64,000 nt of DNA. It comes from Microglena sp. YARC. Taxonomy: Eukaryota > Chlorophyta > Chlorophyceae > Chlamydomonadales > Chlamydomonadaceae. How positions within the stretch are numbered: the first letter of the stretch is position 1; every line of letters begins with the position of its first letter. The DNA lies in contig CM039464.1 of assembly GCA_022414725.1 (NCBI GenBank), forward strand, positions 28,554,917 through 28,618,916. The letters run 5' to 3'. This document shows, one piece after another, positions 1 to 25,189 of this stretch. The notes beneath the pieces are model-generated. The model did not search any database. It was not told the origin of the DNA and was given only the letters and a program-made list of their open reading frames with translations. The translations under genes and the position numbers were made by a program.

Positions 1-470
1 TCCTATCACCCACCTGTCAATACGCCATGCCAGGTGAGGCATTACCGCTCTTTCTTCTTTGGGCTATACGTAGCAGCTTCTAGGCAGCTCCTATCACCCA
101 CCTGTCAATTCGCCATGCCAGGTGAGGCAATACGGCTTTTGTTTTTGGAATACACGTAGCAGCTTCTAGGCAGCTCCTTTCACCCACCTGTCAATACGCC
201 ATGTCAGGTGAGGCATTAACACTATTACTTTTTTGGGCTACACGTAGCAGCTTCTAGGCAGCTCCTTTCACCCACCTGTCAATACGCCATGTCAGGTGAG
301 GCATTAACACTATTACTTTTTGGGGCTACACATAGCAGCTTCTAGGCAGCTCCTTTCACCCACCTGTCAATACGCCATGCCATGTGTGGCATTAACGCTT
401 ACTTTTTGGGGCTACATGTAGCAGCTTCTAGGCAGCTCCTTTCAACCACCTGTCAATACGCCATGTAAGG
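1..470. repeat. Tandem repeat, period about 87 bp, about 5.4 copies
   Basis: Each unit holds a pyrimidine stretch, the motif AGCAGCTTCTAGGCAGCTCC, a short block CACCCACCTGTCAATACGCC and a donor-like CAGGTGAGG. The AGCAGCTTCTAGG part is the same as the terminal inverted repeat of a fold-back element family found at 2.2, 26.9 and 27.4 kb, so the array seems to have amplified from one end of such an element. Every unit also has an acceptor-like AG followed 34 bases later by a donor-like GT, which would make a micro-exon if spliced. Nothing shows that it is. Confidence 0.8.
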
Positions 471-596
471 TGAGATTACCTAAATAAGTTAACATTTTAA
501 ATTTGAAAATTTGAAGTGCTAACGCCTTGCCACCGTGCGTGAGGTTAAACGAACCTTCCCCTAGCTTGCACTGGTGAAGGTTACTGTGGGTTTTGA

Positions 597-952
597 TTTC
601 GCAGACCTCAACAACACTGACCACATAACCCCCTCTCTCCCACGTCACACCTCCTCTGATGTAGACTGTCCACCACTACTGGGATGGGGATGAGATCTGT
701 GGCATCCTAAGCAACCCCTAGATATACCTAGGGATCGGCAAATCATATGATACTGACCAAAAGCGAGTATGATATCATATGATATATACAAATTGCATCA
801 TATGATATTGTACGTAAATGTTAACTTTAGCCTAGGCAGACTGCAGGCATCATATGATATCATATTATGACATGATATTGTGTTGCCGTTCCCTAGTTAT
901 ACCCCAACAACACTGACCACATAAACCCCTCCCTACCACATCACTGGTGTAG
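597..952 (+). repeat. Decayed copy of the exon-1 acceptor region
   Basis: Bases 597-728 and 894-952 together repeat the acceptor (GATGTAG/GGTGTAG) and first part of the exon that begins at 953, including a degraded GGCATCC..GCAACCCC and a CCCCAACAACACTGACC segment. A small AT-rich transposon at 731-893 splits the copy. It is the first example in this window of an intron carrying a duplicate of its own downstream exon border. Confidence 0.7.
731..893. mobile_element. MITE family A, copy 1 (TA target duplication)
   Basis: Terminal inverted repeats read GGGATCGGCAA at the left and TTGCCGTTCCC at the right, flanked on both sides by TA. The interior is AT-rich with short palindromes built on ATATGATATCAT. 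It has no coding capacity. TA duplication with GGGA(A/T)CGG ends suggests a Tc1/mariner-type non-autonomous element. Two relatives lie at 2377-2557 and 21634-21807. Confidence 0.7.
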
Positions 953-1322
953 ACTGTGGATAAATACTGGAGTGAGAATGATATCTGCGGCATCCCAGGC
1001 AACCCCCAGGTGTACCCCAACAACACAGACCTCTACACCAGAGTTTGTGGGGGTATCCTAAACAGGCACCCCTTGATTAATTTTGGGGCTGGGAGCCCGA
1101 CATACGGCTCCATTCTAGTGTGGCGCGACTACAATGACCAGCTGTTCATCACAGTTACTTTGGATGGCCTTGACAGTGCACAAGTTAATGGCCAGGCCTA
1201 CATTGAGAACAATGCAAGTGCTTCACAGCCTGCTCTGGCCATCTCTGTAATGTCAGATTTCAACTCCCTTCCGCCCAGTCAGCCGGCTGCATATCGCAAT
1301 GTGTTTCCCTACCAGGGACTCG
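953..1322 (+). CDS. Pherophorin-like gene, exon 1 seen in window (5' partial)
   Basis: The exon begins after the acceptor GGTGTAG and ends at the donor G|GTGAGT (phase 0 in, phase 1 out), encoding about 123 residues without a stop. The protein is Cys-containing and Asn/Thr-rich (DKYWSENDICGIPGNPQVY at the start, FITVTLDG in the middle) and resembles the globular part of secreted volvocalean wall proteins rather than any enzyme I recognise. No signal peptide is visible, so the true start lies upstream of the window or was missed. The phase-1 donor joins exactly to the phase-1 acceptor of the exon at 2846, which supports the model. The decayed copy at 597-952 supports 953 as a real junction. 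The family call rests mainly on the downstream exons. Confidence 0.6.
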
Positions 1323-1343
1323 GTGAGTGTATGTATGTATGTT

Positions 1344-1430
1344 ACAGTCCAGGGGTAGGCCAAATAGGCTAAAGTGAATTGCCTGAACAACCATGATAGG
1401 AAGGGCTTAAAAAGAAAAAGCTGGGGAGTA
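1344..1430 (+). repeat. Dispersed repeat D, copy 1
   Basis: The core ACAGTCCAGGGGTAGGC is followed by AAATAGGCTAAAG and an A-rich tail. The same core recurs at 8751 (+), 12842 (+, decayed) and 23922 (+), and in reverse at 8690, 16836 and 24935. It is a short non-coding dispersed element (SINE or MITE); no inverted ends are visible. Confidence 0.7.
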
Positions 1431-1440
1431 CAGAAAGTTT

Positions 1441-2165
1441 TGCGAACGGCTAGCTGAGTGCCTGCGGTGGAGAATCAGTGTCTTAGTGCTTGGATTGCTG
1501 TGGCTGAAGCATGAGAATGGCTAGCTGAGTGCCTAGGGTGGAGAATTAGTGTGACTGTGTCTCAGTGCTTGGATTGCTGTGGCTGAAGCATGAGAATGGC
1601 TAGCTGAGTGCCTAGGGTGGAGAATTAGTGTGACTGTGTCTCAGTGCTTGGATTTCTGTGGCTGAAGCGTGAGAATGGCTAGCTGAGTGCCTGGGGTGGA
1701 GAGTTAGTTTGACTGTGTCTCAATGCTTGGATTGCTGCAGCTGAAGCGTGAGAATGGCTAGCTGATTGCCTGGGGTGGAGAATTAGTGTGACTGTGTCTC
1801 AGTGCTTGGATTGCTGTGGCTGAAGCATGAGAATGGCTAGCTGATTGCCTGGGGTGGAGAATTAGTGTGACTGTGTCTCAGTGCTTGGATTGCTGTGGCT
1901 GAAGCATGAGAATGGCTAGCTGATTGCCTGGGGTGGAGAATTAGTGTGACTGTGTCTCAGTGCTTGGATTGCTGTGGCTGAGGCATGGGAATGGCTAGCT
2001 GAGTGGCTGGGGTGGATAATCAGTGACTCAGTGCTTGGATGGATGTGGCTAAAGTGTTGGGAATGGCTAGCTGAGTGCCTGGGGTGTAGTATCAGTGTCT
2101 CAGTGCTTGGATTGCTGTGGCTAAAGTGTGAGAATGGCTAGCTGATTGCCTGGGGTGGGGGATCA
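1441..2165. repeat. Tandem repeat, period about 80 bp, about 9 copies
   Basis: Units share GAATGGCTAGCTGAGTGCC, GGGGTGGAGAATTAGTG and TCAGTGCTTGGATTGCTG. Copies range from about 73 to 81 bases with scattered substitutions. It lies in the intron between the exons at 953 and 2846. No open frame is kept across units. Confidence 0.85.
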
Positions 2166-2201
2166 GCCCGCTGCATATCACAATGTGTTTCTCTACTAGG
2201 T
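2164..2201 (+). repeat. Decayed copy of exon-1 3' end
   Basis: CAGCCCGCTGCATATCACAA and the following bases match the end of the exon at 953-1322 (CAGCCGGCTGCATATCGCAA) but the donor is lost (CTACTAGGTTTC). It is an exon-end duplicate inside the downstream intron. Confidence 0.65.
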
Positions 2202-2374
2202 TTCTTTTTTGGGCTATGCGTAGCAGCTTCAAGCAGCTCCTTTCCCCCGTCCTTTGGGGAAAACTGAAGCTAGCTTGTGTGCCTGAAATCTGACATGACA
2301 GGCATTCCAGCATAGCCGAAAGCAGTGGCTGAACCAGTGGCTGGCTAATGGAGCTGGCTGGAAGCTATCATGTG
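2202..2374. mobile_element. Fold-back MITE family B, copy 1
   Basis: Imperfect inverted ends: TAGCAGCTTCAAGCAGCTCC near the left and GGAGCTGGCTGGAAGCTATC near the right. About 170 bp, non-coding. Related copies lie at 26,909 and 27,418, and the left-end motif makes up the tandem array at 1-470. It abuts a MITE A copy. Confidence 0.6.
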
Positions 2375-2376
2375 TA

Positions 2377-2557
2377 GGGAACGGCAACTAAAATTAGTGT
2401 TTGAAAAACTAAAGCTCACTAATATTATTACAGTGTCACAAAAATATTAGTTTTTCAAATCAATTGGAAATTCTGGTGAGACGGCTTGTCCTACTAATAT
2501 TATCTAATATTATGTAATATTATTTATTCATTAATAGTATATAACATAGCGGACCCC
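2377..2557. mobile_element. MITE family A, copy 2 (decayed)
   Basis: The left end GGGAACGGCAACTA is flanked by TA, and the right end ..TAGCGGACCCC is followed by TA. The interior is AT-rich with TAATATTA palindromes. The ends match less well than in copies 1 and 3. Confidence 0.5.
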
Positions 2558-2678: not shown

Positions 2679-2845
2679 CTCACAGGGAAGTACATTGGCA
2701 CCACCTTTACCATTAATCTGAAAAAGTACACTGGCACCACCTTTTGCCGTTAATCTGACAAGTGCACTGTCTCCCCCTTGCAGGGAAATACACTGGCACC
2801 ACCTTTGCCATAAATATTTAAAAGTACATTGGCACCACCTTGCAG
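2679..2845 (+). repeat. Three decayed copies of the exon-2 acceptor region
   Basis: The element CAGGGAAGTACATTGGCACC and variants of it occur four times before and at the real exon start at 2846. Copies at 2679, 2725 and 2782-2845 carry stop codons or lack the AG. This is exon-start duplication upstream of a real acceptor. Confidence 0.75.
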
Positions 2846-3024
2846 GGAAGTACACTGGCACAACCTTTGCGGTCAATCTGAAAAAGGTTTGCAATGGCCT
2901 GACCTCGGTTTACAACCCAAGCTTCCTGGTTGACAACAATTGCCAGTGCCTGCCTGGCATTTTGTCCTGCCCTCCCACGGATTTGTCTGCTTATCCTAGC
3001 TTGTGGGTCCACATCCAGGCAGTG
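2846..3024 (+). CDS. Pherophorin-like gene, exon 2
   Basis: The exon runs from the acceptor CCTTGCAG to the donor GTG|GTAAGT, phase 1 in and phase 0 out, and encodes about 60 residues beginning KYTGTTFAVNLKKVC. It has four or more cysteines in a CQCLPG..LSCPP pattern, as in secreted disulphide-bonded domains. Joined to exon 1 it completes a Gly codon and stays open. Of the several repeated candidate acceptors upstream, this one is the only one that gives an uninterrupted frame in the needed phase. A partial copy of its middle (PSFLVDNNC) lies in the next intron at 3104. The function beyond wall or extracellular-matrix structure is unknown. Confidence 0.6.
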
Positions 3025-3765: not shown

Positions 3766-4124
3766 TTGTCCAGGAGAGTGTTGTTATGCATCCGACTAAC
3801 ATCAAGACTTCTCATGTCCTGCAGGCTACCACCTATTCTGTCAACAATGCAAATTGTAGACTATCTTAGCCAAATGTATTCAAACAAACCCAGAATGATA
3901 TCATATGTCCAGGCTGTGCCCAGGAGAGTGTTGTTATGCATCCTAATAACATCAAGACTTCTCATGTCCTGCAGGCTACCACCTATTCTGTCAACAATGC
4001 AAATTGTAGACTATCTTAGCCAAATGTATTCAAACAAACCCAGAATGATATCATATGTCCAGGCTGTGCCCAGGAGAGTGTTGTTATGCATCCTAATAAC
4101 ATCAAGACTTCTCATGTCCTGCAG
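3766..4124 (+). repeat. 153-bp tandem repeat of the exon-3 acceptor region
   Basis: Two full copies and one partial copy of a 153-bp unit precede exon 3. Each holds CTCATGTCCTGCAG followed by GCTACCACCTATTCTGTC, i.e. the real acceptor and the first bases of exon 3. Only the last copy leads into the open exon at 4125; in the others the exon part is cut off after AATTGTAGACTATC. The units read through in one frame, producing a long but repetitive spurious ORF. Confidence 0.85.
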
Positions 4125-4565
4125 GCTACCACCTATTCTGTCAACAATACAAATTGTGGCTCTCCTGTGGCTTCCGTGCCCTTACTCAACATCCTCAGTG
4201 TCATCAGCCCTCAGAACTGTGGCACACTACCTCCAACACCCCCCCCTGCTCCGCCGATTCCTCCTACTCCTCCACCACGCCCTTCACCCCCATCTCCTCC
4301 TTCTCCACCCCTACCGCCGAATTTTGATAAGTTCAGCTCAATCAGTGTATCCAAGCTGGATGGCGTCTTTGACCCAGTCACTGCCTGTGCTGCTATGGAA
4401 TCTGTACTACAAGAGTACTATAACGGTACTACAACGCTCCCAATCGCCTACACCACAACCTGCTACATATATCCCCAACCAAGGGAATTACAATATCAAG
4501 GGACATCAGGAACTGCCAGCAATATCACCTTCAACATATACTACGCAAACCCACTCGACGTTAAC
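4125..4565 (+). CDS. Pherophorin-like gene, exon 3 (globular end, Pro linker, globular start)
   Basis: Phase 0-0 exon of 147 codons: acceptor CCTGCAG, donor AAC|GTAAGT. The order is a Cys module end (ATTYSVNNTNC...), a Pro linker of PPTPPPAPP and PPSPP type (about residues 43-70), and the first half of a module containing FDPVTACAAMESVLQEYYNG and TTTCYIY, ending NITFNIYYANPLDVN. The layout of PPSPP spacer between Cys domains is that of volvocalean pherophorin-like extracellular-matrix glycoproteins; the Pro residues would be hydroxylated and glycosylated in the secretory pathway. The second half of the module is in the next exon. Exon 4 is a clear paralogue of this exon. Confidence 0.75.
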
Positions 4566-5334
4566 GTAAGTTGAATGCTGTAGTGGTAGTGCTGCTGCTA
4601 TTGTTGTAGTGCCACTGTTGATTCAGCATATAATACTCAAACTGACTCGATGTAGAAGTTAGTTGCATGTTGTAGTGGCTGTGCTTATGTTCAATGCTGT
4701 ACTGGTAGTGCTGCTGTTGTTGTAGTGCCACTGTTGATTTAGCATATACTACTCCAACCCAACTGATGCAGACGTGAGTTGAATGTTGTAATGGTAGTGC
4801 TGCTTTTGTTGTAGTGCTGCTGTTCAATGCTGTAGTGGTAGTGCTGCTGCTGTTGTAGTGCCACTGTTGATTTGGCATAAACTACTTCAACCCAGCCGAT
4901 GCAGGCGTAAGTTGAATGTTGTCATGGTAGTGCTGCTTTTGTTGTAGTGCTACTGTTGAATGCTGTAGTGGTAGTGCTGCTGTTGTTGTAGTGCCGCTGT
5001 TGATTCAGCCTATCATATTCAAACTGACTCAATGTAGACGATAGTCGAATGTTGTTATGGTGGTGGAGCTGTTGTTGTAGTGCTGCTGTTGAATGCTTTA
5101 GTGGTAGTGCTGTTGCTGTTGTAGTGCTGCTATTGTAGTGCCACTATTAAATGCTGTAATGGTAGTGCTGCCGTAGTGGTGGTGTTGTTGTTGTTGTAGT
5201 GCTGCTGTTGAATGCTGCAATGGTAGTGCTGCTAGTAAATGCTGTAGTGGTAGTGCTGCTGTTGTTGTACTGCTACTGTTGAATGCTGTAATGGTACTGC
5301 TGTTGTTGTGGTAGTGCTGCTGTTTTGGCAGTAC
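4566..5334 (+). repeat. Tandem copies of the exon-3 end with its donor
   Basis: GTAGTGGTAGTGCTGCTGTT units dominate. Interspersed every 85-130 bases at 4630, 4745, 4870 and 5010 are degraded copies of the exon-3 end and donor (CATATACTACTCCAACCCA, then GACGTGAGTTGAATG). It is the same unit as in the intron after exon 4 but more decayed. Confidence 0.75.
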
Positions 5335-5782: not shown

Positions 5783-6288
5783 TCCTTGCTCACCATCATG
5801 GCCAACTCTGCAATATGGATCAATCTCTTCGATGCGCTAAACACAGGCTGCGGCCCCGCAGGCCTTTACTCAGACACCCTGCGTCCTGGCATCCTCATCC
5901 GTGCCTGCACAGTCGTTCAAGGGAATACTCAGCCTGTGTTGTGCGACTTGGCGATTGGAGGATATATTTGTTCCCTTCCTCCCCCTGCACCCCCCCATCT
6001 CCACCACCTGCCCCCCCATCTCCCCCACCTGCACCCCCATCTCCTCCTCCTCGTCCACCCCTACCACCCAACCTTGATAGCTTCGCATCAATCAGCATAT
6101 CCAAGAGGGATGGCCTCTTCGACCCAGTCACTTCCTGTGCTGCGGTACAATCAGTTCTGGGGCTGTACTACAACCTGTTCCCCAGCGCCTACACCACAGA
6201 CTGCTACATTTATTCCTCATCTGGCTCATCAGGAACCTCAAGTAATGTCACCTTCAACATATACTACTCCAACCCAGGCGACATAAGC
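5783..6288 (+). CDS. Pherophorin-like gene, exon 4 (with a 1-base frame break)
   Basis: Acceptor TTTGCTACGCAG and donor AGC|GTAAGT. The first part encodes the second half of a module (NSAIWINLFDALNTGCGP, CDLAIGGYIC), then a PPAPPSPPP linker, then a new first half (SISISKRDGLFDPVTSCAAV, TDCYIY, NVTFNIYYSNPGDIS). It is the paralogue of exon 3 (second part) and exon 5 (first part). Its length, 506, is not a multiple of three, although both neighbours need phase 0-0. The frame shifts inside a run of seven C at 5990-5996. Eight (or five) C would restore one open frame across the exon, as exon 5 has at the same place. A sequencing or assembly error in the homopolymer is the likeliest cause. Confidence 0.72.
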
Positions 6289-7080
6289 GTAAGTTGAATG
6301 TTGTAATGGTAGGGCTGCTGTTGTTGTAGTGCCACTGTTGATTCAACATATACAGCTCCAACCCAGGTGATATAAGCGGAAGTTGAATGTTGTAATGGTA
6401 GTGCTGCTGTTGTTGTAGTGCCACTGTTGATTCAACATATACTACTCCAACCCAGGCGACATAAGCGTAAGTTGAATGTTGTAATGGTAGTGCTTCTGTT
6501 GTTGTAGTGCCACTGTTGATTCAACATATACAGCTCCAACCCAGGTGATATAAGCGGCAGTTGATTGTTGTAATGGTAGTGCTGCTGTTGTTGTAGTGCC
6601 ACTGTTGATTCAACATATACAGCTCCAACCCAGGGGATATAAGCGGAAGATGAATGTAGTAATGGTAGTGCTGCTGTTGAATGTTGTAGTGCCACTGTTG
6701 ATTCAACATATACAGCTCCAACCCAGGTGATACAAGCGGAAGTTGAATGTTGTAATGGTAGTGCTGCTGTTGTTGTAGTGCCACTGTTGATTCAAAATAT
6801 ACAGCTCCAACCCAGGTGATATAAGCGGTAGATGAATGTTGTAATGGTAGTGCTGATGTTGAATGTTGTAGTGGCAGTGCTGATGTTGAACAATGGAATG
6901 GTAGTGCTGATGTTGAATGATGGAGTGGTAGTGGTGCTGTTGCTGTAGTGCCACTTTTGAATGTTGTACTGGTAGTGCTGCTGTTGTGGTAGTGCTACTT
7001 TTGAATGCTTTCATGGTAGTGATTCTGTTGTTGTAGTGCCACTGTTGAATGCTGTAATGGTAGTGATGCTGTGGTATTCG
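6289..7080 (+). repeat. 88-bp tandem repeat of the exon-4 end and donor, about 6 clear copies
   Basis: From the real donor onward, units alternate TTGTAATGGTAGTGCTGCTG with copies of the exon end (CATATACTACTCCAACCCAG, GATATAAGCG) and a donor-like GTAAGTTG or GGAAGTTG. Clear copies lie near 6341, 6432, 6521, 6610, 6703 and 6791; later units (6840-7080) keep only the TAGTGCTG part. The copy at 6432-6475 is base-for-base almost the exon end with an intact GTAAGT. Confidence 0.85.
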
Positions 7081-7450: not shown

Positions 7451-7619
7451 TGCCTCCCAAATTGATATACTGCCTGGCCCCTCATGTCACCCTGAGTGTG
7501 CAGTGGGTCCTGTTAACACCAGCCAACTCTGCACCTTGATCTTTCATAGCTCTCCCTGTTACTGGGCAACCCATCTAACTGATCCCCCCCCCCCCCCCCC
7601 CCCCCCTTTGCCATCAATC

Positions 7620-7843
7620 CTATCTCCTCATATCTCTTTCCCACCCCTGTTGCTACACAGCACATGTTGTACACCATGAACAACCCATCTTCCTGATTCT
7701 CCTCCTCTAAACCCTCCCCTACCCCCTACCCCCACCCCCCATTCTGCCATCAATCATATCTACTCACATCGCTTTCCCACCCCTGTTGCTATGCATCACA
7801 TGTTGTACACCATGAACAACCCATCTTCCTGTTTCTATTCCCC

Positions 7844-7886
<43 letters not shown>

Positions 7887-9063
7887 CCACACCCCTTCTG
7901 CCATCAATCTTATCTCCTCATATCTCTTTCCCACCCCTGTTGCTATGCAGCGTATGTTGTACACCATGAACATCACATCTTCCTGTTTCTACTCCCCCCC
8001 TCCCCCTCCCCCACACCCCTTCTGCCATCAATCTTATCTCCTCATATCTCTTTTCCACCCATGTTGCTATGCAGCGCATGTTGTACACCATGAACATCCC
8101 ATCGTACTGTTTCTCCCCCCCCTCCCCCTCTCCTTTCTGCCATCAATCCTATTTCCTCACATCTCTTTCCCACCCCTTTTGCTACGCATCACATGCTGTA
8201 CACCATGAGCAGCCCATCTTCCTGATTCTCCTCCCCTAAACCCTCCCCTCCCCACCCACCCACCCATTATGCCATCAATCATATTTCCTCATATCTCTTT
8301 CCCACCCCTGTTGCTACACAGCACATGTTGTGCACCATGAACAACCCACCTTCCTGATTCCCCTCCCCCTCCCCCTCCCTCTTCTCCCCCTTCATCTTCC
8401 CGTTCCCCTTCCCTCACCAATCATACATTGTCATATATCTTTCCCACGTATAGCTCTATAAAGTTCATGTTGTACACCATGAACAACCTACCTTCCTGAC
8501 CCCCCCCCCCCCCCCCCCTCCCCTTCCCCCCTTCCCCATCAATCCTACCTTGTTATATCTCTTTCCCACCTATATCGCTATGAAGTACAATGTTGTAGAC
8601 CATGAACAACCCATCTCCTTGACCTCCCCCCCCCCCCCCCCCCTTTCCCCCAACAATCCTATCTCTTCATATCTCTTTCCTACCTTATTTGGATACCCCT
8701 GGACTGTACAAGTACATGCATACATCTCTTCCCTACCTGTATGTATGCTACAGTCCAGGGGTAGGCCCAATAGGCTAAAGGGACTTGCCCAACCGTGACA
8801 GAAAGTGAAAAAAAGAAAAGGCATTGATGAACTGAAACCCACCTATGTACTTCACTGTGGGGCACTCTCTACAATGTGCTTAAGACAGGCTGTGCACACC
8901 ACCCCTATGACCCCCCCCCCCCCCCCCTCCCCCCTCTTTCCCCATCAATCATATCTCTTGACCACCTTCATCACTACGCAGTACATGTTCTACTTTGACC
9001 TATGTACTTCCCCCCTGCACAGTACATGTTCTACTTCAAACTTTGTACTTCCCACCTGTGCAG
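7620..9063 (+). repeat. About ten copies of the exon-5 acceptor region, period about 120-150 bp
   Basis: Each unit holds CCATCAATCCTATCTC, TTTCCCACC, an acceptor-like GTTGCTACACAG and the exon start CACATGTTGTACACCATGAA, then a C-rich stretch. Copies start near 7650, 7790, 7940, 8065, 8180, 8315, 8460 and 8575, with two short ones at 8970 and 9018. Several still have the AG. The last, at 9061, opens the real exon. A relic of deeper exon sequence (GGGGCACTCTCTACAATGTG) is seen at 8858-8890. Confidence 0.85.
8687..8830. repeat. Dispersed repeat D, inverted pair
   Basis: CCCCTGGACTGTACAAGTAC at 8695 faces GCTACAGTCCAGGGGTAGGC at 8748, forming a possible hairpin with a loop rich in ATGTATG. The right arm continues with the usual ATAGGCTAAAGGGACTTGCC tail. 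Confidence 0.7.
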
Positions 9064-9584
9064 TACATGTTCTACACCATGAACAACCCGGCCATGTGGG
9101 GCACTCTCTACAATGTGCTTAACACAGGCTGTGGCCCGACAGGCATCTACTTCGACACCCTGAGTACCACCAACTACATCCGTGCATGCACTGACTTCGT
9201 TGGAGTGTGTAACTTTGTCATTGGAGGATACTTGTGTGCCCCTCCTCCGCCTGCACCCCCATCTCCGCCTTCTCCTCCACCACCACCGCGGCCTCCTTTG
9301 CCACCCGGCCCAACCACTCCTCCACTACCTCCTACCCCGCCGCCCTCTCCTTCACCACCACCACTCCCTCCAGCACCCTCCCCCCCATCCCCTCCTGCAT
9401 GTGCGATGGTGATCAACTTCCAAGGACCCCAATTGTATCAATTCTCGACAAGAGAGTGTGAGAGCCTGGCAAGCCAAGCCACTCTGGCGTACATCCAAGG
9501 CATAGTTTGGTACTGCCAATACCAGACCTTATCTTCAATGTCAATGTCTGTGTTCGCATTCCTTACAGGCGCACAACCTCAAGC
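9064..9584 (+). CDS. Pherophorin-like gene, exon 5
   Basis: Acceptor CACCTGTGCAG, donor AAGC|GTGAGT; phase 0 in, phase 2 out, 173 codons and two bases. It begins YMFYTMNNPAMWGTLYNVLN, contains the TGCGPTGIYFDTLSTTNYI and VIGGYLCAP segments shared with exon 4, then a long PPSPP/PPLPP linker (about residues 60-115), then a new module start ACAMVINFQGPQLYQF with REC..LASQATLAYIQG. The Cys pattern and linker are of the pherophorin-like type. Many decoy copies of its start lie upstream, and copies of its end (CACAACCTCAAGCGTGAGT) lie in the next intron. Phase 2 fits the one-base start of exon 6. Confidence 0.75.
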
Positions 9585-10392: not shown

Positions 10393-10439
10393 ACAAAAAA
10401 AAGTACCAATCATACCACACTACAACTACTGAATTACCA

Positions 10440-10813
10440 CCTTCTTCTGTCATCCAGTTTCCTGTCTTCCTTTGCGGCGGAGATGGCGTTTGCCGAGGTT
10501 ATCACCTCCTCCTACCTGGATACTAAGTTCGAGGGTTGCGGCATGGCTTACACAATTTCGCATATCCATCGCTTAGGTCTTAGCCCCCCTAGGGGCCGAC
10601 CAACTACTGAATCACCACCTTCTTCTGCCATCCAGTTTTCTGTCTTCCTTTGCGGCGGAGATGGCGTTTGCCGAGGTTATCACCTCCTCCTACCTGGATA
10701 CTAAGTTCGAGGGTTGCGGCATGGCTTACACAATTTCGCATATCCATCGCATAGGTCTTAGCCCCCCTAGGGGCCGACCAACTACTGAATCACCACCTTC
10801 TTCTGCCATCCAG
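10440..10813 (+). repeat. 178-bp tandem repeat of the exon-6 acceptor and start
   Basis: Two copies upstream of the real exon contain TCTGCCATCCAG, the first about 100 bases of exon 6 (from TTTCTGTCTTCCTTTGCGGC to GGCATGGCTTA) and then a different tail CACAATTTCGCATATCC. They are nearly identical to one another. If spliced in, each would add part of the domain and then run into the tail. Confidence 0.88.
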
Positions 10814-11108
10814 TTTTCTGTCTTCCTTTGCGGCGGAGATGGCGTTTGCCGAGGTTATCACCTCATCCTACCTGGATACTAAGTTTGAGGGTTGTGGCAT
10901 GGCTTATCAAGCCATATCTGGTTGTGGGCTCCCTACAGTCGCATGGACATCTGCCAACCTGACAAGCCTAGCCTGCCCACCATCCCCCCCTAGGCCCCCA
11001 GTGCCCCCACCTCCACCACCTGCCCCTCCACCAGGACAAGGCCACTCTAGACCTCCACCTAGTCCTCCCCCCCCTGGTACAACCGAGGGATGGACCTTCA
11101 CAGCACAG
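10814..11108 (+). CDS. Pherophorin-like gene, exon 6
   Basis: Acceptor GCCATCCAG and donor CAG|GTGAAC; phase 2 in, phase 0 out. It completes the Ala codon from exon 5 and continues FLSSFAAEMAFAEVITSSYL, FEGCGMAYQAISGCGLP and TSLACPPSPP, i.e. the second half of the module started in exon 5. A PPVPPPPPPAPPPG linker and the tail EGWTFTAQ follow. The phase match and identity of the module order with the exon 3/4 and 4/5 pairs make this exon well supported. Both of its borders are heavily duplicated in the flanking introns. Confidence 0.72.
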
Positions 11109-12815
11109 GTGAACGAAGAGAGAATGATGGGGATTTAAACTTTACCCAAGGGTCTTTTACCCGGCTTTTACCTACAATTATTTTTACCCAAAGGTATTGT
11201 TTATCACGGTCTTATACTCATGGTTATTTTATCGTGGGCGCAGGTGAACAAAGAGAGAATGATGGGGATTCAAATTGTACCTATGGGGATTTTACCTAAT
11301 AGTATTGTCACCCAAGGGTATTTTATTAATGGTATGTACCAAGGGTATTTTTACCCAAGGATATTTTACGGCACCTGCCCCCCCGCCAGGACAAGGCCAC
11401 TCTAGTCCTTAACCTAGTCCTCCCCCCCCCCCCCCCCCCCCCCCCCCCCCTGGGAGTACTGAAGGATGGAACTTCACAGCAGAGGTGACGAGGGTTTAGG
11501 GAGTACCCGGGGATAGACCTTCACAGCAGAGGTGAAGAGGGTTAAGGGTTTTAGGGAGTACTGGGGTATGGACCTTCACAGCAGAGGTGAAGAGGGTTTA
11601 GGGTTTTAGGGAGTACCTGGGGATGGACCTTCAAGGAACAGGTGAAGAGGGTTTAGGATTTTAGGGAGTAGCGGGGGATGGACCTACACAGCACAGGTGA
11701 ACGAAGAGAGAATGACGGGGATCTAAATTGTACCTACAGGTATTTTGCCTTTACCTAGTATTTTCACCCAAGGGTATTTTATTTTGGGTATTTACCAAGG
11801 GTATTTTTACCCAAGGATATTGTATGACACCTGCCCTTCCTCTTGTGGAGGACAAGGCCACTCTAGTCCTCCACCCAGTCCTCCCCCCCCTGGGAGTACT
11901 GAGAGATGGACCTTCACAGCAGAGGTGAAGAGGGTTTATGATTTTAGGGAGTGCCAGGGGATGACCGTATACAGCAGAGGTGAAGAGGGTTTATGGTTTT
12001 AGGGAGTACCAGGGGATGACCGTATACAGCAGAGGTGAAGAGGGTTTATGGTTTTAGGGAGTACCAGGGGATGACCGTATACAGCAGAGGTGAAGAGGGT
12101 TTATGGTTTTAGGGAGTACCAGGGGATGACCGTATACAGCAGAGGTGAAGAGGGTTTATGGTTTTAGGGAGTACCAGGGGATGACCGTATACAGCAGAGG
12201 TGAAGAGGGTTTATGGTTTTAGGGAGTACCAGGGGATGACCGTATACAGCAGAGGTGAAGAGGGTTTATGGTTTAGGGAGTACCAGGGGATGACCCTATA
12301 CAGCAGAGGTGAAGAGGGTTTATGGTTTTAGGGAGTACCAGGGGATGACCGTATACAGCAGAGGTGAAGAGGGTTAATGGTTTTAGGGAGTACCAGGGGA
12401 TGCCCCTATACAGCAGAGGTGAAGAGGGTTTATGGTTTTAGGGAGTACCAGGGGATGACCGTATACAGCAGAGGTGAAGAGGGTTTATGGTTTTAGGGAG
12501 TACCAGGGGATGACCCTATACAGCAGAGGTGAAGAGGGTTTATGGTTTTAGGGAGTACCAGGGGATGCCCCTATACAGCAGAGGTGAAGAGGGTTTATGG
12601 TTTTAGGGAGTACCAGGGGATGACCCTATACAGCAGAGGTGAAGAGGGTTTATGGTTTTAGGGAGTACCAGGGGATGACCGTATACAGCAGAGGTGAAGA
12701 GGGTTTATGGTTTTAGGGAGTACCAGGGGATGCCCCTATACAGCAGAGGTGAAGAGGGTTTATGGTTTTAGGGATTACCAGGGGATGACCCTTTGCAGCA
12801 GAGGTGAAGAGAGAA
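11109..12815 (+). repeat. About 20 copies of the exon-6 end and donor, mostly a 58-bp tandem
   Basis: Early units (11,230-11,700) keep GGATGGACCTTCACAGCAGA followed by GGTGAAGAGG. From 11,905 to 12,800 there is a very regular 58-60-bp array (CAGCAGAGGTGAAGAGGGTT, TATGGTTTTAGGGAGTACC). Every unit retains an AG|GTGAAG donor-like site. Larger copies that also include the Pro-linker end (CAAGGCCACTCTAG, CCTCCCCCCCCTGG) lie at 11,390-11,480 and 11,850-11,930. The first includes a 29-C run (11,422-11,450). Confidence 0.9.
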
Positions 12816-13620: not shown

Positions 13621-14150
13621 TGTCATGTGTCGTGTCGTGTCGTGTCGTGTCGTGTCGTGTCGTGTCGTGTCGTGTCGTGTCGTGTCGTGTCGTGTCGTGT
13701 CGTGTCGTGTCGTGTCGTGTCGTGTCGTGTCGTGTCGTGTCGTGTCGTGTCGTGTCGTGTCGTGTCGTGTCGTGTCGTGTCGTGTCGTGTCGTGTCGTGT
13801 CGTGTCGTGTCGTGTCGTGTCGTGTGTCGTGTCGTGTCGTGTCGTGTCGTGTCGTGTCGTGTCGTGTCGTGTCGTGTCGTGTCGTGTCGTGTCGTGTCGT
13901 GTCGTGTCGTGTCGTGTCGTGTCGTGTCGTGTCGTGTCGTGTCGTGTCGTGTCGTGTCGTGTCGTGTCGTGTCGTGTCGTGTCGTGTCGTGTCGTGTCGT
14001 GTCGTGTCGTGTCGTGTCGTGTCGTGTCGTGTCGTGTCGTGTCGTGTCGTGTCGTGTCGTGTCGTGTCGTGTCGTGTCGTGTCGTGTCGTGTCGTGTCGT
14101 GTCGTGTCGTGTCGTGTCGTGTCGTGTCGTGTCGTGTCGTGTCGTGTCGT
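13621..14150. repeat. (TGTCG)n microsatellite, about 105 units
   Basis: Almost perfect 5-bp repeat, with one extra TG at about 13,825 that shifts the phase. Open in all frames only because the unit lacks stops. Confidence 0.98.
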
Positions 14151-14740
14151 GTGGAGTGGAGTGGAGTGGAGTGGAGTGGAGTGGAGTGGAGTGGAGTGAG
14201 TGGAGTGGAGTGGAGTGGAGTGGAGTGGAGTGGAGTGGAGTGGAGTGGAGTGGAGTGGAGTGGAGTGGAGTGGAGTGGAGTGGAGTGGAGTGGAGTGGAG
14301 TGGAGTGGAGTGGAGTGGAGTGGAGTGGAGTGGAGTGGAGTGGAGTGGAGTGGAGTGGAGTGGAGTGGAGTGGAGTGGAGTGGAGTGGAGTGGAGTGGAG
14401 TGGAGTGGAGTGGAGTGGAGTGGAGTGGAGTGGAGTGGAGTGGAGTGGAGTGGAGTGGAGTGGAGTGGAGTGGAGTGGAGTGGAGTGGAGTGGAGTGGAG
14501 TGGAGTGGAGTGGAGTGGAGTGGAGTGGAGTGGAGTGGAGTGGAGTGGAGTGGAGTGGAGTGGAGTGGAGTGGAGTGGAGTGGAGTGGAGTGGAGTGGTG
14601 TGGAGTGGTGTGGAGTGGTGTGGAGTGGTGTGGAGTGGAGTGGAGTGGTGTGGAGTGGTGTGGAGTGGTGTGGTGTGGAGTGGTGTGGAGTGGAGTGGAG
14701 TGGAGTGGAGTGGAGTGGAGTGGTGTGGTGTGGTGTGGAG
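14151..14740. repeat. (TGGAG)n microsatellite, about 118 units
   Basis: Starts directly where the TGTCG array stops. One base is missing at about 14,198. The last 150 bases alternate with TGGTG variants. Confidence 0.98.
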
Positions 14741-14858
14741 TACATACATACATACATACATACATACATACATACATACATACATACATACATACATACA
14801 TACATACATACATACATACATACATACATACATACATACATACATACATACATACATA
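14741..14858. repeat. (CATA)n microsatellite, about 29 units
   Basis: Third block of the compound microsatellite, perfect to its end, 80 bases upstream of exon 7. Confidence 0.98.
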
Positions 14859-14938
14859 CTTGAATCTTGAATCTTTAGGTTCGAATCTTTCGAATCGTTC
14901 AAGCTGGAATTGTGAATTGTGATCTTCTTATGGTGCAG

Positions 14939-15031
14939 GTTTTCTCTATAGGTGGCTCAGGCGATCTGAATTGTGATGTCATGCTTATCAGCCTCCGTTC
15001 TCTCATAAATCTACTTGGCGTGCAAACTCAG
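14939..15031 (+). CDS. Pherophorin-like gene, exon 7
   Basis: A 31-codon phase 0-0 exon between TATGGTGCAG and the donor CAG|GTGAGA. It encodes VFSIGGSGDLNCDVMLISL followed by RSLINLLGVQTQ. It joins in frame to exon 6 (…FTAQ) and exon 8 (GAPTCYLAG…). Independent support is that eight degenerate copies of its end and donor follow it in the intron, the same pattern as at the other real exons. The short length makes the call less certain than for exons 3-6. Confidence 0.6.
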
Positions 15032-15905
15032 GTGAGACTTTAATACAATAAAATATATGAATACATAATATGAATTGTGATGGAATGCTTATCAGCCTCC
15101 ATCCCCTCATAAATCTAGTTGGTGTTCCAACCAGGTGAGACGTGAATACAATAAAATAAAATATATGAATACATAATCTGAATTGTAAAGCCATGCTTAT
15201 CAGTCTCCATTCCCCCAGAAATCTAGTTGGCATGCAAACCCAGGTGAGACTTGACTACAATGAAATAAAACATATCAATGCATAATCTGAATTGTGTTGC
15301 CATGCTTATCAGCCTCCATTCCCCCAGAAATCTAGTTGGCATGCAAACCCAGGTGATACGTTAATACAATAAGATATATAAATAAATAATACGAATTGTG
15401 ATGCCATGCTTATCAGCCTCCATTCCCCCAGAAATCTAGTTGGCATGAAAACCCAGGTGATACGTTAATACAATAATATATATAAATAAATAATACGAAT
15501 TGTGATGCCATGCTTATCAGCCTCCATTCTCTCATAATCTACTTGACATGCATAACCAGGTGAGGCTTGAATACAATAAAATACGGCAAAATATATAATA
15601 CATAATATTAATTATTGTGCCATGCCAGCCTCCATTCCCTCATAAATCTCAATGACATGCTAACCCAGGTGTGACTCAAATACAACAAAATATATGAATA
15701 TATAATATGAATTGTGATGTAATGCTTATCAGTTTCCACTCCCTCATAAATCTAGGTGGCATGCAAAACCAGGTGAGACTTGAATACAATCAAATTCCAT
15801 AAAAATATAAATAAATATTTTGAATTGTTATGCCATGCTTAGCAGCCTACTTTCTCTCAGAAATCTACTTGGCATGCAAACCCAGGTGAGACTTGAATAC
15901 AATTA
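15032..15905 (+). repeat. Eight copies of the exon-7 end and donor, period about 105 bp
   Basis: Units contain TGCTTATCAGCCTCCATTCC, AGAAATCTAGTTGGCATGC, AAACCCAG|GTGAGA and an AT-rich spacer with AATACAATAAAATATATGAA. Donor-like sites are intact in about half of the copies (near 15,132, 15,240, 15,558, 15,769 and 15,884). Confidence 0.88.
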
Positions 15906-18096: not shown

Positions 18097-18642
18097 GGTG
18101 CCCCTACCTGTTACTTGGCAGGTCCCCTGGCAGTGATCCGTGCGGAGATCACAAATCCTGCTGATGGCCTGCGCTTCACATCCTTCTTCACCACCAACCT
18201 CAACTACTTCGTCCAAGGTGGTGCCATTCCGTGTGGGAGCACTATCGTCCTCCACTCTGGATTCCTCCCGATTGCGATTGAAACATGCTCCCCTGAAGTT
18301 CCAGCTCTGTGCTGTGGGAACACTCCCACTCGTATCCCCTCTGCCCCGCCTCCACCATATTGGCATGAGTGGTTCTCACCTCCTCCACCTGTGCACGTCG
18401 CCTCTCCTCCCTCTCCTCCTCCCCATGGTGGCGTATTCCCCATCCCCCCACCACCTGTGCACGTCGCGTCTCCTCCCTCTCCTCCTCCCCCATGGTGGCG
18501 TATTCCCCCATCCCCCCCACCACCTGTGCACGTCGCCTCTCCTCCCTCTCCTCCCCCACCTACTCATGTCACCTTTCCCTCTCCCCCACCCCCCTGGTGG
18601 CATGTTCCCGCCATCCCCCCCACCGCCATATCATTACATCAG
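18097..18642 (+). CDS. Pherophorin-like gene, exon 8
   Basis: Acceptor CTGTCTGCAG. The donor is either CAG|GTCTCC at 18,642 (phase 0, chosen because exon 9 needs phase 0) or TTG|GTAAGA at 18,658 (better consensus, wrong phase). It encodes GAPTCYLAGPLAVIRAEITN, a Cys pair ALCCGN, then three near-identical linker units of PPPVHVASPPSPPP with WW/HGG breaks, ending AISLHQ. Early residues look like a secreted Cys domain; the linker is a Pro/His-rich variant of the PPSPP spacers in earlier exons. Copies of the linker end and of both donor candidates lie downstream at 18,959-19,255. Confidence 0.62.
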
Positions 18643-18958: not shown

Positions 18959-19255
18959 ACTGCGTCTCCCCCCCCCCCCCCCCCCCCCCTCCCTGGTGGT
19001 ATATTCCCCCACTCCACTCCCCACCTACTCATTTTTCCTCTCCCTCTTCTCCCCCCCCCCTGATGGCATATTCCCCCATCCCCACCCACCTACTCATTTC
19101 ACCGCTCCCTCTCCCCCTCCCCCCTGATGGCATATTCCCCATCCCCACCCACCTACTCATTTCACCGCTTCCTCCTCCTCCCCCTGGTGGCATGTTCCCC
19201 CATCCCCCCCACCGCCATATCATTACATCAGGTCACCACCACCACCGGTAAGAAT
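18959..19255 (+). repeat. Copies of the exon-8 linker end and donor
   Basis: A poly-C run, then CTGGTGGTATATTCCCCCA and CCCACCTACTCATTTCACC units, ending CATATCATTACATCAGGTCA and GGTAAGAATATAAATAAGC, identical in layout to the real exon end at 18,600-18,680. Confidence 0.8.
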
Positions 19256-19760
19256 ATAAATAAGCAGCTACCAAGCAGCTTCCCTTATAACCATGCTTTG
19301 AACATTGCAATGCCCTTTGCAGCTACCAATAAGCTTCCCTTATTACCATGCTTTGAACATTGCAATGCCCTTTGCAGCTACCAAGAAGCTTCCCTTATTA
19401 CCATGCTTTGAACATTGCAATGCCCTTTGCAGCTACCAAGAAGCTTCCCTTATTACCATGCTTTGAACATTGCAATGCCCTTTGCAGCTACCAAGAAGCT
19501 TCCCTTATTACCATGCTTTGAATATTGAAATGCCCTTTGCAGCTACCAAGCAGCTTCCCTTATTACCATGCTTTGAATATTGAAATGCCCTTTGCAGCTA
19601 CCAAGAAGCTTCCCTTATTACCATGCTTTGAATATTGAAATGCCCTTTGCAGCTACCAAGCAGCTTCCCTTATTACCATGTTTTGAACATTGCAATGCCC
19701 TTTGCAGCTACCAAGCAGCTTCCCTTATTACCATGCTTTGAACATTGAAATGCCCTTTCA
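19256..19760. repeat. 60-bp tandem repeat, about 8 copies
   Basis: Units TTGCAGCTACCAAGCAGCTT, CCCTTATTACCATGCTTTGA, ACATTGCAATGCCC. It starts from the sequence just after the exon-8 donor, so it is a further amplification of the intron 5' end. Each unit has an acceptor-like TTTGCAG. Confidence 0.9.
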
Positions 19761-20036
19761 AGGCTCCCCCACTCATCCATTACCTAGATCAGATGCATAT
19801 CCACTTTTCTGTGTGCCCTTGGCAGCCTCTTCCACCCATCCATTACCTAATCAGATCTCCATCCACTTTTCTGTCTGCCCTTGGCAGCCTCTTCCACCCA
19901 TCCATTACCTAAAACCAGATCTCCTTCCACTTGTATATCTGCCCTTTGCAAACCTCCCCCACCCATCCATTATCTAAAATCAGATGTTCATCCACTTTTC
20001 TGTCTGCCCTTGGCAGCCCCCCCCCCCCCCCCCCCC

Positions 20037-20094
<58 letters not shown>

Positions 20095-20212
20095 ACACAT
20101 CCATTACCTAAATCAGATCTCCATCCACTTTTCTGTCTGCCCTTTGCAACCTCCCCCACCCATCCATTCCCTAAATCAGATGTCCATCCACTGTTCTGTC
20201 TGCCCTTTGCAG
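19761..20212 (+). repeat. Copies of the exon-9 acceptor region, about 65 bp each
   Basis: TTTTCTGTCTGCCCTTGGCA, then G and CCTCCCCCACCCATCCATTA, repeated five times (near 19,805, 19,868, 19,930, 19,996 and 20,130) before the real junction at 20,212. In two copies the AG has become AA. One copy is expanded by C runs of 20 and 43 (20,017-20,036 and 20,038-20,080). Confidence 0.88.
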
Positions 20213-20353
20213 CCTCCCCCACCCATACATTATGAGCCATTGGATGTGGAGCGTAGTTTCACAATACTTACTCCAGCACAATTGCAAGGCACCCCCCTCT
20301 CTGGTACCTACGTGCGTGAGCAGCTGTGCCCTGTTTTGCTGCATGGAATAACG
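20213..20353 (+). CDS. Pherophorin-like gene, exon 9
   Basis: Acceptor GCCCTTTGCAG, donor ACG|GTGAGG; 47 codons, phase 0-0. It encodes PPPPIHYEPLDVERSFTILT, then PAQLQGTPLSGTYVREQLCP and VLLHGIT. It closes the Pro linker and begins a new globular segment. The frame is fixed because the other two frames stop within 40 bases. The upstream series of duplicate acceptors supports the junction. Confidence 0.6.
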
Positions 20354-21912: not shown

Positions 21913-21975
21913 GTTATGTTCAATGAGCTTCGCCTGACAAATGGGCTGGACTATGTCATCGATCCAGAGTGCAAG
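21913..21975 (+). CDS. Pherophorin-like gene, exon 10
   Basis: 21 codons, phase 0-0: VMFNELRLTNGLDYVIDPEC then K, between AACGATTTGCAG and the donor AAG|GTGAGA. It continues exon 9 (…HGIT) in frame. A duplicate of the exon end with donor-like GTGATA follows at 22,043-22,086, as at other real exons. It is short and has no family match of its own. Confidence 0.5.
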
Positions 21976-22879: not shown

Positions 22880-23300
22880 TCACAATAATTGCCTGCCGAC
22901 CAGACAACGCGATGGCATGACGTTGATGCAGAGGATGATATATTGCGAATTGCGCGCGGCAGCCTGCCTCGCAGCATGAGACTCACGTCTTGTCTGGTTA
23001 TTAACCTGACGTTGATTTTCAGGACTGGTTGCATGAGCTTCCCGCCTGGCCTGGTTGTAAGTCGCGCGCTGCTGTGGGTTAGCAGGCATATCTGAACTCA
23101 AACGCCGACGCTGGTTTGCTTAGCTCCTTTTCTCGTCGGTCTGAACTCTGAAGAGCTCGCCTTGCACGCTGAGTGGCTGAGTATGCTGCCCTTATGTCAT
23201 TCAAAAGTTGTTGGTCATGCGGTAGCAATGGTGGCATCAAGAAGCAGGAGCAGGTATTTTTATTTCCGCTATATATAGCGATCGCTAGTTTTGACCCCAT
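22880..23300 (-). pseudogene. Fragment of a transposon-type Arg/Gln/Asn-rich ORF
   Basis: Two overlapping minus frames read LLNDIRAAYSATQRARRALQ, then (other frame) NPQQRATYNQARREAHATS and NQRQVNNQTRRESHAARQAA. Short repeated RR/QA..A motifs of this kind are common in Helitron and other transposon-encoded proteins, but no helicase or transposase motif is present, so the class stays open. It lies antisense in the intron between exons 10 and 11 and needs at least one frameshift. Confidence 0.4.
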
Positions 23301-23478
23301 TTTAGGGAAATTATCGCTATAAAAAAAGTATACAAAAAAAAGTTTTTTTTTTTGCCCTCAATGGCTCTAAAAAGCTACAAAAAGCTACAGAAAGCACTAA
23401 AACGCTGTCCCTGGAGGAGGCCTACAACCATAAAGCTAGAAGAAACCCACTTTCAGGTTTGAAAAAAAATCTCTGAGC
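23262..23478 (+). mobile_element. Dispersed repeat F, copy 2
   Basis: TTCCGCTATATATAGCGATC, GCTAGTTTTGACCCC, CACTAAAACGCTGTCC and CATAAAGCTAGAAG match copy 1 in order. Confidence 0.7.
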
Positions 23479-23847
23479 AGAGGTTGTTATAATTATCAAC
23501 CTGAGCGCCATTTTTTTGTTTATTCGGCGAGAAAGCGAACGAAGTGGACGAAGGATTGAATTTTGTTTCAGGCATTGTACGGAAATTAGACCACAACAGC
23601 AAGACAATTGTGGTACGTGAACGTGAAAGGTAGGGCTGTGTGTGGAGTTTGCAGAGAAGCGAAGGGCATAGGAGAAGCGAAGCGAAGGGCGCAGAAGGCC
23701 GGCAGAAGGTGAGATTCGAAATTTGCACGCATTCCCACGGTACAGTACAGCAGGCCGTGTCATATGTCCGTGAGTACTACAATTGTCTGTGCCCCCCGCC
23801 CCCCTATGACACGAGGAACGAAGATATCGCGGGAATCCATGTATGTC

Positions 23848-23850
<3 letters not shown>

Positions 23851-23890
<40 letters not shown>
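23851..23890. repeat. (AT)n microsatellite
   Basis: About 20 units. Confidence 0.95.
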
Positions 23891-23893
<3 letters not shown>

Positions 23894-23921
23894 AATACAT
23901 GGTATAGATGGTATAGTCCAG

Positions 23922-23990
23922 GGGTAGGCTAAAATAGGCTAAAGGGACTTGCCCAACCATGACAGGAAGGGCTAAAAAGAAAAATGACTG
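23922..23990 (+). repeat. Dispersed repeat D
   Basis: AGTCCAGGGGTAGGCTAAAA, TAGGCTAAAGGGACTTGCCC, AACCATGACAGGAAGGGC then an A-rich tail; the most complete copy. Confidence 0.75.
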
Positions 23991-24099
23991 TACAAATACA
24001 TACATGCATACTTGAGTCTACTGAACGTTATGTAATGTCTACCTCCAGACTTTGATAGAGTCTAATCATCAGCATCATAAGGATGATCCCACATTACTA

Positions 24100-24300
24100 T
24101 ACCTCATGCCCCTCATCCCATGGCCCCATGCCCCCACATCCCATACACCATGCCCCATACCCCATACCCATGCCCGCACATCCCATACACTATGCCCATA
24201 CCCATACCCAATTCCCCATACCCCATGCCCCATGCCCCACATCCCATACCCCATACCCCCACGTCCCACATCCCATGCCCAATGCCCCTCCTCATCATGA
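24100..24300. repeat. CCCATACCCC-type low-complexity array
   Basis: Irregular CCCATGCCCC, ACATCCCATAC motifs. Open in several frames on both strands but not coding. Confidence 0.85.
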
Positions 24301-24499
24301 TAATGATGATAACTGATCAAGCAATTGTGTCTCTTTCTCCTTGATCTATGCAGATCTCAACCTCATAACTCATCATACAAGTCTTTCAAGTGTCTTATCC
24401 ACATATTAATCTCCCTATTTTCTGTTGGTATCACACGGAAGGACTTTGAATTGGAAGACGGTGAACATCCTAGAGTTGGCTGAAAAACTATGGAGCAAT

Positions 24500-24660
24500 T
24501 CAATCCAATCCAACCTCTCAACCACACAGTACATCTCCTCTTCTCCCATGCAGATAGCAATCCAATCCAAACTAACAGTACATGTCCTCCTCTCCCATGA
24601 AGATCGCCATCCAATGCAACCTTTAGTGCATCTCCTCTTCTGCCATGCAGATCGTAAATT
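24500..24660 (+). repeat. Repeats resembling an exon-11 acceptor
   Basis: Three CATGCAG|AT(A/C)G-type junctions near 24,550, 24,602 and 24,653 with CATCTCCTCTTCT tracts. They may be decoys of the exon at 25,030 (TTTCAG|ATTGTC); the match is short. Confidence 0.4.
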
Positions 24661-24679
24661 TTAATGACCTCGGTAGCAC

Positions 24680-24885
24680 GAACTCAGGGCCTCTGTAGGG
24701 TAAACAATTTTGGGGGGCCTCAGAGCCTCTGGGCCTATGCAGGGTAAATCAATTTTGGGGGGCCTCTGGGCCTCTGTAGGGTTAAATGATTTTGGAGGGC
24801 CTCAGGGCCTTTGGGCCTGTGCAGGGTAAAACAATTTTAAGGGGCCTCTGGGCCTCTGTAGGGGGAAACGATTTTGGGGGGTCCA
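24680..24885. repeat. GGGCCTCTGTAGGGTAAA tandem, about 4 units
   Basis: Units of about 50 bases with GGGCCTCTG, (T/G)(A/C)AGGGTAAA and ATTTTGGGGGGCCTC. Each contains a donor-like GGGTAAA. Confidence 0.8.
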
Positions 24886-24924
24886 GTTCATCAATGTTTG
24901 TTTTCTCTTCAGCCCCTCCTGATA

Positions 24925-24978
24925 TCGAGGTTGGGCAAATCCCTTCAGCCTATTTGCCTACCCCTGGACTGTAGAATA
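24925..24978 (-). repeat. Dispersed repeat D, reverse copy
   Basis: GGTTGGGCAAATCCCTTCAG, CCTATTTGCCTACCCCTGG, ACTGTAG: reverse complement of the D core. Confidence 0.75.
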
Positions 24979-25029
24979 CATACATTGATACTCACGATAT
25001 GTCAATAAACCTATTCTTCTCCCTTTCAG

Positions 25030-25080
25030 ATTGTCCACACCCGTTCGGAGCGTGGAATCTTCTACAAACTGACCATGCAA
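25030..25080 (+). CDS. Pherophorin-like gene, candidate exon 11
   Basis: After the good acceptor CTCCCTTTCAG, phase 0 reading gives IVHTRSERGIFYKLTMQ, which fits directly after exon 10 (…DPECK). The end is uncertain: GTATTG after 25,080 is a weak donor, and the frame otherwise continues to a stop at 25,287 through a repeated segment. The 3' end of the gene, its stop and its poly-A signal were not identified. Confidence 0.4.
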
Positions 25081-25189
25081 GTATTGTCAAATACTGCAAG
25101 CAGTCTCCTTCATTACCTGATTTATCTCGACACTTTTAGCATCTTCGTCCAGAATGCCCGTGTTTTGTGTCAATCAGAATTTCGTCTGG

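Follow-up and report, generated by a model that had tools for sequence, protein, structure and literature searches.

Copies of exon–intron borders inside the introns of a green alga point to local tandem duplication

In three unrelated gene families of the green alga Microglena sp. YARC, about half of the exon–intron borders tested (55/115) have further copies inside their own introns. These copies probably arose by local tandem duplication within introns and were retained where the mRNA stays unchanged. The pattern is set out here from one window, a stretch of 64,000 nucleotides (C3:28554917-28618916 of a 568-Mb assembly), whose features are given in window coordinates unless stated otherwise. 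At its left end lies gene B, a gene of 12 exons that begins 5′ of the window start, at -1073, and ends at 25,287; a preliminary description of this DNA had confined the gene to positions 1 to 25,100.

Border copies in the window gene

Each border was represented by a probe of 20 exon and 20 intron bases, and its best ungapped match in the rest of that intron counted as a copy when it reached a threshold of at least 29/40 matching bases. By this measure, 13 of the 22 borders of gene B are copied: 8/11 donors (introns 1, 4, 5, 6, 7, 8, 9 and 11) and 5/11 acceptors (introns 2, 3, 5, 6 and 9). Ten of the 11 introns hold at least one copy, which bears out the preliminary count of at least nine. Shuffled sequence, named there as a possible refutation, never attained the similarity of the real copies; 20 shuffles for each border gave 26/40 at most. 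Both kinds of intron end are affected, though not throughout the gene: nine of the 22 borders lack a copy that reaches the threshold, and neither end of intron 10 is copied.

The copies can be long and nearly exact. Perfect 40/40 copies occur at the acceptors of introns 3 and 6 and at the donor of intron 5, and a single copy can include up to 93 exon bases. Arrays called by Tandem Repeats Finder (TRF) run across the borders at 2846, 4125, 6288, 9064, 10814, 15031 and 20213. In one case the stop codon acts like a border: in comparisons made without shuffles, the stop-codon border of gene B is copied downstream at 36/40, and the last 60 coding bases at 53/60, within 1.5 kb.

The same pattern in other genes

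The pattern extends to other introns of the genome, namely those of two paralogues of gene B, 9/11 dynein heavy chain loci and a chaperonin (CCT) gene. Copies were found at 4/5 borders of gene A (P0004, the upstream neighbour), at 11/16 borders of gene C (C3, 28.69 Mb) and at 2/4 borders of the CCT gene, which was located with the profile PF00118. In the dynein heavy chains, 25 of 60 borders in 30 introns are copied (donors 13/30, acceptors 12/30). Further shuffles for gene B, gene A, the paralogues on C1 and the dyneins reached 29/40 in 0/950 trials.

A search of the whole genome with the dynein profile PF12774 gives a view of exon fragments that is free of gene models. At C1:61,043,188, seven fragments that start at 63-68 and stop at 107-108 come after an exon covering profile positions 1-110. 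Downstream of C1:29,822,771 lie four tail fragments of a similar kind, ending at profile positions 100-109, and head fragments lie upstream of the exons at C1:31,310,609 and C3:56,958,435. Dynein junctions were placed with a purpose-written spliced aligner, using as query a dynein of the same genome that has the domain in one open frame. The PF00118 table contains one clear exon-tail copy (C5:39,358,262) among 64 matches; either profile tables alone under-report junction copies, or certain genes carry fewer of them.

These counts follow filtering. Five of 35 dynein introns were dropped for weak sites or a length below 150 bp, and one of nine gene C introns for a length below 150 bp. Two of five gene A introns and one gene A donor were also left out. 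Only two introns of the CCT gene could be placed, and the dynein locus at C3 0.9 Mb, one of the 11, had no intron left. Two or three of the retained dynein junctions have weakly supported flanks.

Properties of the copies

All copies are direct. They occur at 42/95 junctions, and an opposite-strand search returned inverted copies at 0/95 and 0/16 junctions (0/111 in total). A direct copy carries a median of 42-45 exon bases and a maximum of 126. Copies stay close to their source: the half of the intron next to their own junction holds 82% of 142 donor copies (many from one array) and 90% of 40 acceptor copies. They are also private to each gene. Where genes A, B and C have homologous borders, these matched own-gene copies in 18/22 tests and other-gene copies in 0/34, which implies independent origin or homogenisation of the arrays in each gene. 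Comparisons across introns within gene B gave 2/220 matches, both between the homologous introns 4 and 5, which share donor units and interrupt duplicated protein domains. Transposed elements or introners were rejected as a source on these cross-intron and cross-gene counts and on the lack of inverted copies, in comparisons that did not extend genome-wide.

Splice signals are often preserved. GT is kept in 108/156 donor copies and absent from 48, and AG is kept in 40/44 acceptor copies; 88 of the 156 donor copies come from a single 46-bp array in intron 3 of gene A, and beyond that array 48/68 keep GT. This array (C3 about 28541883-28548785) has 76 positions with at least 38/40 matches to the donor border, and some of its units have GC for GT. 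Donor copies that keep GT score 3.47 out of 4 for site strength, against 3.55 for real sites. The best copy reaches at least 38/40 at 13/95 junctions, seven of these perfect, and falls at 29-37/40 at the other 29 of 42. At those 13 junctions the local 40 bases therefore cannot choose the real site; position or wider context must.

The preliminary description held the real junction to be always the outermost copy and the only one in phase. Homology and reading frame support the former. The latter does not hold, as 59/182 copies (95 junctions) are in phase, roughly the one third expected by chance; just 3/182 are both in phase and free of stops.

Duplication at borders and in the surrounding DNA

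The exon–intron border is neither preferred nor avoided by duplication. Borders are copied at a rate of 53/111 (48%), and intron 40-mers lying within 100 bp of intron ends at 403/852 (47%). The two rates are 13/22 and 85/168 in gene B, 4/13 and 29/106 in gene A with the C1 genes, 25/60 and 203/457 in the dyneins, and 11/16 and 86/121 in gene C.

Copying falls away into the exons, where it is found mainly within ∼120 bp of the border. In successive 40-bp bins from the border, dynein exon 40-mers are copied at 47/114, 28/105, 14/83, 4/75, 1/68 and 0/294 on the donor side and at 54/120, 21/116, 3/92, 0/81, 0/67 and 13/397 on the acceptor side, and gene B exons show a comparable fall-off. Copied junctions become more frequent as introns lengthen: 2/16 in introns below 500 bp, 13/34 at 500-1,000 bp, 16/30 at 1-2 kb and 11/15 above 2 kb. 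Four 3-kb samples from arbitrary places set in advance gave local duplication values of 0.53, 0.00, 0.00 and 0.75.

Origin and retention of the copies

In the mechanism that we favour, direct tandem duplications, with units of roughly 30-180 bp, keep arising locally in many introns. Slippage or unequal exchange is the molecular source that we infer; it fits copies that are direct, local and often head-to-tail, as the preliminary description had proposed, although its idea that the process is centred on junctions is not supported, given the equal rates at borders and nearby intron. A duplication spanning a border would place an exon end and donor 3′ of the real donor, or an acceptor and exon start 5′ of the real acceptor. 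Where the exon-proximal sites are still used, the mRNA would be unchanged and the duplication would be near neutral and persist, whereas duplications entering the mRNA out of frame would be lost. The 69-bp in-frame repeat inside exon 8 counts in favour, as a surviving coding duplication. Exon definition, in which the closest pair of sites across an exon is used when introns are long, would keep the real junction outermost at both intron ends, and successive rounds of duplication and decay would fill the intron with junction copies. Carranza et al. report a matching preference among alternative sites: large introns favour those closest across the exon, and short introns show the reverse (PMC9225289). 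A rule by which the first transcribed site wins would account for donors but not for acceptors.

A junction-directed process, in which splicing, R-loops or reverse splicing duplicates borders preferentially and introns grow from both ends, is unlikely. The confinement of copies to their own intron half would suit it, as would a per-kb profile that shows much local duplication in the long introns of genes A, B and C but little in most other DNA profiled. Borders, however, are copied no more often than neighbouring intron, and the dynein intron interior more than 300 bp from the ends is duplicated more (678/951) than the ends themselves (203/457); junction targeting was rejected on the equal rates. 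The same rates bear on decoy splice sites selected to tune splicing or intron retention, which the preliminary description had offered as its alternative and which we regard as very unlikely. Retained GT and AG dinucleotides and the strength of the retained donors speak for decoys, as does the splice core, whose positions are the least variable among copies (mismatch 0.08 for donor and acceptor copies alike; compared with intron-derived positions, p 0.009 and 0.03). Against exon-derived positions, however, the core signal reaches only p 0.05 (donor) and 0.06 (acceptor) in ungapped copies selected by similarity; this copy-to-copy comparison is ambiguous and was not relied on. Decoy function was rejected since border copies show neither excess nor deficit over the intron background, 48/156 donor copies have no GT, and homologous junctions have no copies in common (0/34).

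It is highly improbable that the copies record the birth of the introns through tandem exon duplication (the AG/GT model), even though most of these introns are missing from the C1 paralogues. Under that model, the end of the upstream exon should recur ahead of the acceptor, and the start of the downstream exon behind the donor; here the arrangement is reversed, each kind of copy lying mostly in the half of its own junction, and the model was set aside on this geometry. Rogers in 1989 and Zhuo in 2007 reportedly described introns from tandem arrays, with tandem duplication involving splice sites explaining new introns. In the present case, by contrast, shared introns predate private copies: E4/E5 and E5/E6 are common to genes A, B and C, yet each gene has its own copies. 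There is also scarcely any chance that some copies are genuine exons, alternative or additional, or artefacts of the assembly. The protein model P0001 does join three copies of the exon-6 start in series, but the segment is single in the paralogues P0002-P0004, and so few copies are both in phase and open. The imperfect best copies at most junctions (29 of 42) are unlike a false expansion by an assembler.

Several observations weigh against local tandem duplication with neutral retention, or at least against its uniformity. Duplication is uneven: the two intron-poor C1 paralogues have copies at 0/8 borders, the dynein locus at C1 3.39 Mb at 0/4, and CCT intron 1 has none. The start-codon border of gene B has no upstream copy (best 20/40, without shuffles). 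The use of the outermost sites is read from protein homology and frame. Some exon matches lie well away from the border, namely the 13/397 acceptor-side dynein 40-mers more than 200 bp away and 7/301 donor-side windows of gene B more than 160 bp away. Between copies, the exon half differs less than the intron half (donor 0.13 versus 0.29, acceptor 0.14 versus 0.27, in ungapped, threshold-selected copies); we take the lower exon-half mismatch as a result of repeated copying from a fixed exon, though it could hint at weak constraint. Finally, positions 27 to 64 kb of the window, where reverse-transcriptase elements lie, are mostly near zero in duplication, with a maximum of 0.32 per kb bin (at 29 kb) when simple sequence is excluded. 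Some factor beyond uniform slippage may thus favour long transcribed introns. The per-kb profile suggests intron-specific mutation, in a comparison confounded by age and made with DNA that contains transposon remnants.

Gene model, paralogues and feature map

All 11 introns of gene B are GT-AG, and the exons form a single reading frame, which a frameshift in exon 4 interrupts once. The shift lies at about 5983-6010 (a C-run, ∼5995); the frames on either side are open and conserved, and it is either an assembly error or a genuine change. P0001 (EukProt gene29694-5127_t), a near-identical protein model, aligns to exons 0-8 and 10 with 80-100% identity and appears to be the model of gene B itself. 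Exons 9 and 11 were placed by reading frame and by-eye likeness to the paralogue P0002. The donor of exon 8 (after 18,642) is placed provisionally, as phase requires CATCAG/GTCTCC (the slash marks the splice site), a weak site. The product is a proline-rich protein that we take to be pherophorin-like, with one weak match to a C. incerta pherophorin-domain protein (E 8.6e-3). Chlamydomonas sp. UWO 241 likewise supplied weak protein matches, and a Pfam search with eight open reading frame (ORF) pieces returned a sole, non-significant match to VIR_N (E 0.26).

Besides genes A and C, the family includes two intron-poor genes on C1 (P0002 and P0003). Introns E4/E5 and E5/E6 of gene B have homologous positions and phases in genes A and C. 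At C1:84.70-84.72 Mb, two paralogues have two 5′ introns and then one long ORF (778 aligned residues, P0002); the absence of 3′ introns would fit intron loss via cDNA.

Table 1. Exons and border-copy arrays of gene B. Single numbers within a row are positions of scored copies.
Feature	Position	Strand	Basis
Exon 0; real donor at -912/-911	upstream of window, from -1073	+	gene model
88-bp donor-side array, 5.4 units in window, exon-0 tail and donor (..AATACGCCATGCCAG/GTGAGG); copies 208, 296	1..474	+	TRF, scoring
Exon 1	953..1322	+	P0001 match, frame
Acceptor-side copies of exon-2 start (2686, 2784), continuing into real exon	2688..2884	+	TRF, border scoring
Exon 2	2846..3024	+	frame, P0001
150-bp array (98% matches) across exon-3 acceptor; copies 3825, 3975 (best 40/40)	3770..4157	+	TRF, scoring
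Exon 3	4125..4565	+	frame, P0001
Donor-side copies of exon-3 end (4658, 4774)	4570..5127	+	TRF, scoring
Exon 4	5783..6288	+	frame, P0001
89-bp array from within exon 4, tail and donor; copies 6378, 6467, 6556, 6645, 6738, 6827	6253..6861	+	TRF, scoring
Intron 5 acceptor side: 124-bp array (exon-5-start likeness by eye), then copy 9023	7583..9075	+	TRF, scoring
Exon 5; donor copies 9665, 10257	9064..9584	+	frame, P0001, scoring
178-bp array (97% matches) including 93 bases of exon 6; acceptor copies 10458, 10636; real start 10814	10423..10906	+	TRF, scoring
Exon 6	10814..11108	+	frame, P0001
55-bp arrays, units like exon-6 tail (by eye); donor copy 11697	11464..12811	+	TRF, scoring
Exon 7	14939..15031	+	P0001 match, frame
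104-bp array, 65-68 exon-7 bases and donor; copies 15244, 15353, 15457, 15560, 15669, 15773, 15886	14967..15903	+	TRF, scoring
Exon 8 (donor provisional); in-frame 69-bp coding repeat at 18385-18554	18097..18642	+	TRF, frame
Copy of exon-8 tail and donor (19232)	18982..19258	+	TRF, scoring
63-bp array; acceptor copies of exon-9 start 19826, 19888, 20017, 20150	19751..20232	+	TRF, scoring
Exon 9	20213..20353	+	frame; by-eye likeness to P0002
Exon 10; donor copy 22084	21913..21975	+	P0001, scoring
Exon 11 with stop	25030..25287	+	frame; by-eye likeness to P0002 C-terminus
Last-coding-exon copies past stop codon	25288..25600	+	scoring; extent by eye

Intron 7 also contains long (GTGTC)n, (GTGGA)n and (TACA)n arrays, head to tail in that order (13627-14859). 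Just 3′ of gene B, at about 28400-39700 with limits set by eye, lies what we take to be a LINE-like element, with reverse-transcriptase-like frames and a YADD motif; it is mostly without local duplications. A decayed reverse-transcriptase-like fragment was noted by eye at 53761-54306 on the reverse strand, and an assembly N run occupies about 44600-45640.

Relation to known systems and significance

The preliminary description knew of no standard account of such introns, but one exists in animals. The ‘mirages’ of lancelets, described in Adh3, globins, troponin C and PGBD5, are minisatellite-like tandem duplications that span intron-exon boundaries; in the available text of these reports, units measure about 10-160 bp, many but not all keep AG/GT, and regular splicing is reportedly undisturbed (PMC3087553, PMC3902484). 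Like mirages, the copies described here are direct tandem repeats whose unit spans a boundary, affect 5′ and 3′ boundaries in gene B and the dyneins alike, and in many cases keep their splice signals. Unlike those gene-by-gene reports from an animal, as far as their available text goes, the present case concerns a green alga and three unrelated families, involves up to dozens of copies, many of them non-contiguous, and includes a measured background rate. In human duplicated genes, tandem repeats over exon-intron boundaries are either retained in the transcript or spliced from it (PMC2812944, 2009). That study, in its available text, covers 27 intron modifications in recent paralogues and frames them as novel-intron formation, whereas the present copies derive from borders that already existed and lie in long introns. 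In the literature searched, including the available text of PMC11228838 and PMC8226300 and with most subscription journals outside its range, we met no report of the phenomenon from algae or plants, nor of one at such density. The kind of event is thus already known from mirages; its occurrence in a green alga and its pervasiveness look new.

A boundary-duplication phenomenon of lancelets is now seen in a very distant lineage, at about half of the borders tested. The rates provide a simple test that tells neutral duplication apart from targeting of junctions or a role as decoys. Annotation is exposed to a hazard, as gene predictors can call copies as exons, which P0001 with its three serial copies of the exon-6 start appears to show. 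The seven perfect 40-base copies are natural contests between identical splice sites, useful for the study of exon definition in an alga. More speculatively, and as a suggestion that we hold only tentatively, local tandem duplication with borders included might be a main route to long introns genome-wide in this lineage, tolerated since splice sites pair across exons and not across introns; the copies would then form a fossil record that reveals the exon-definition rule without RNA data.

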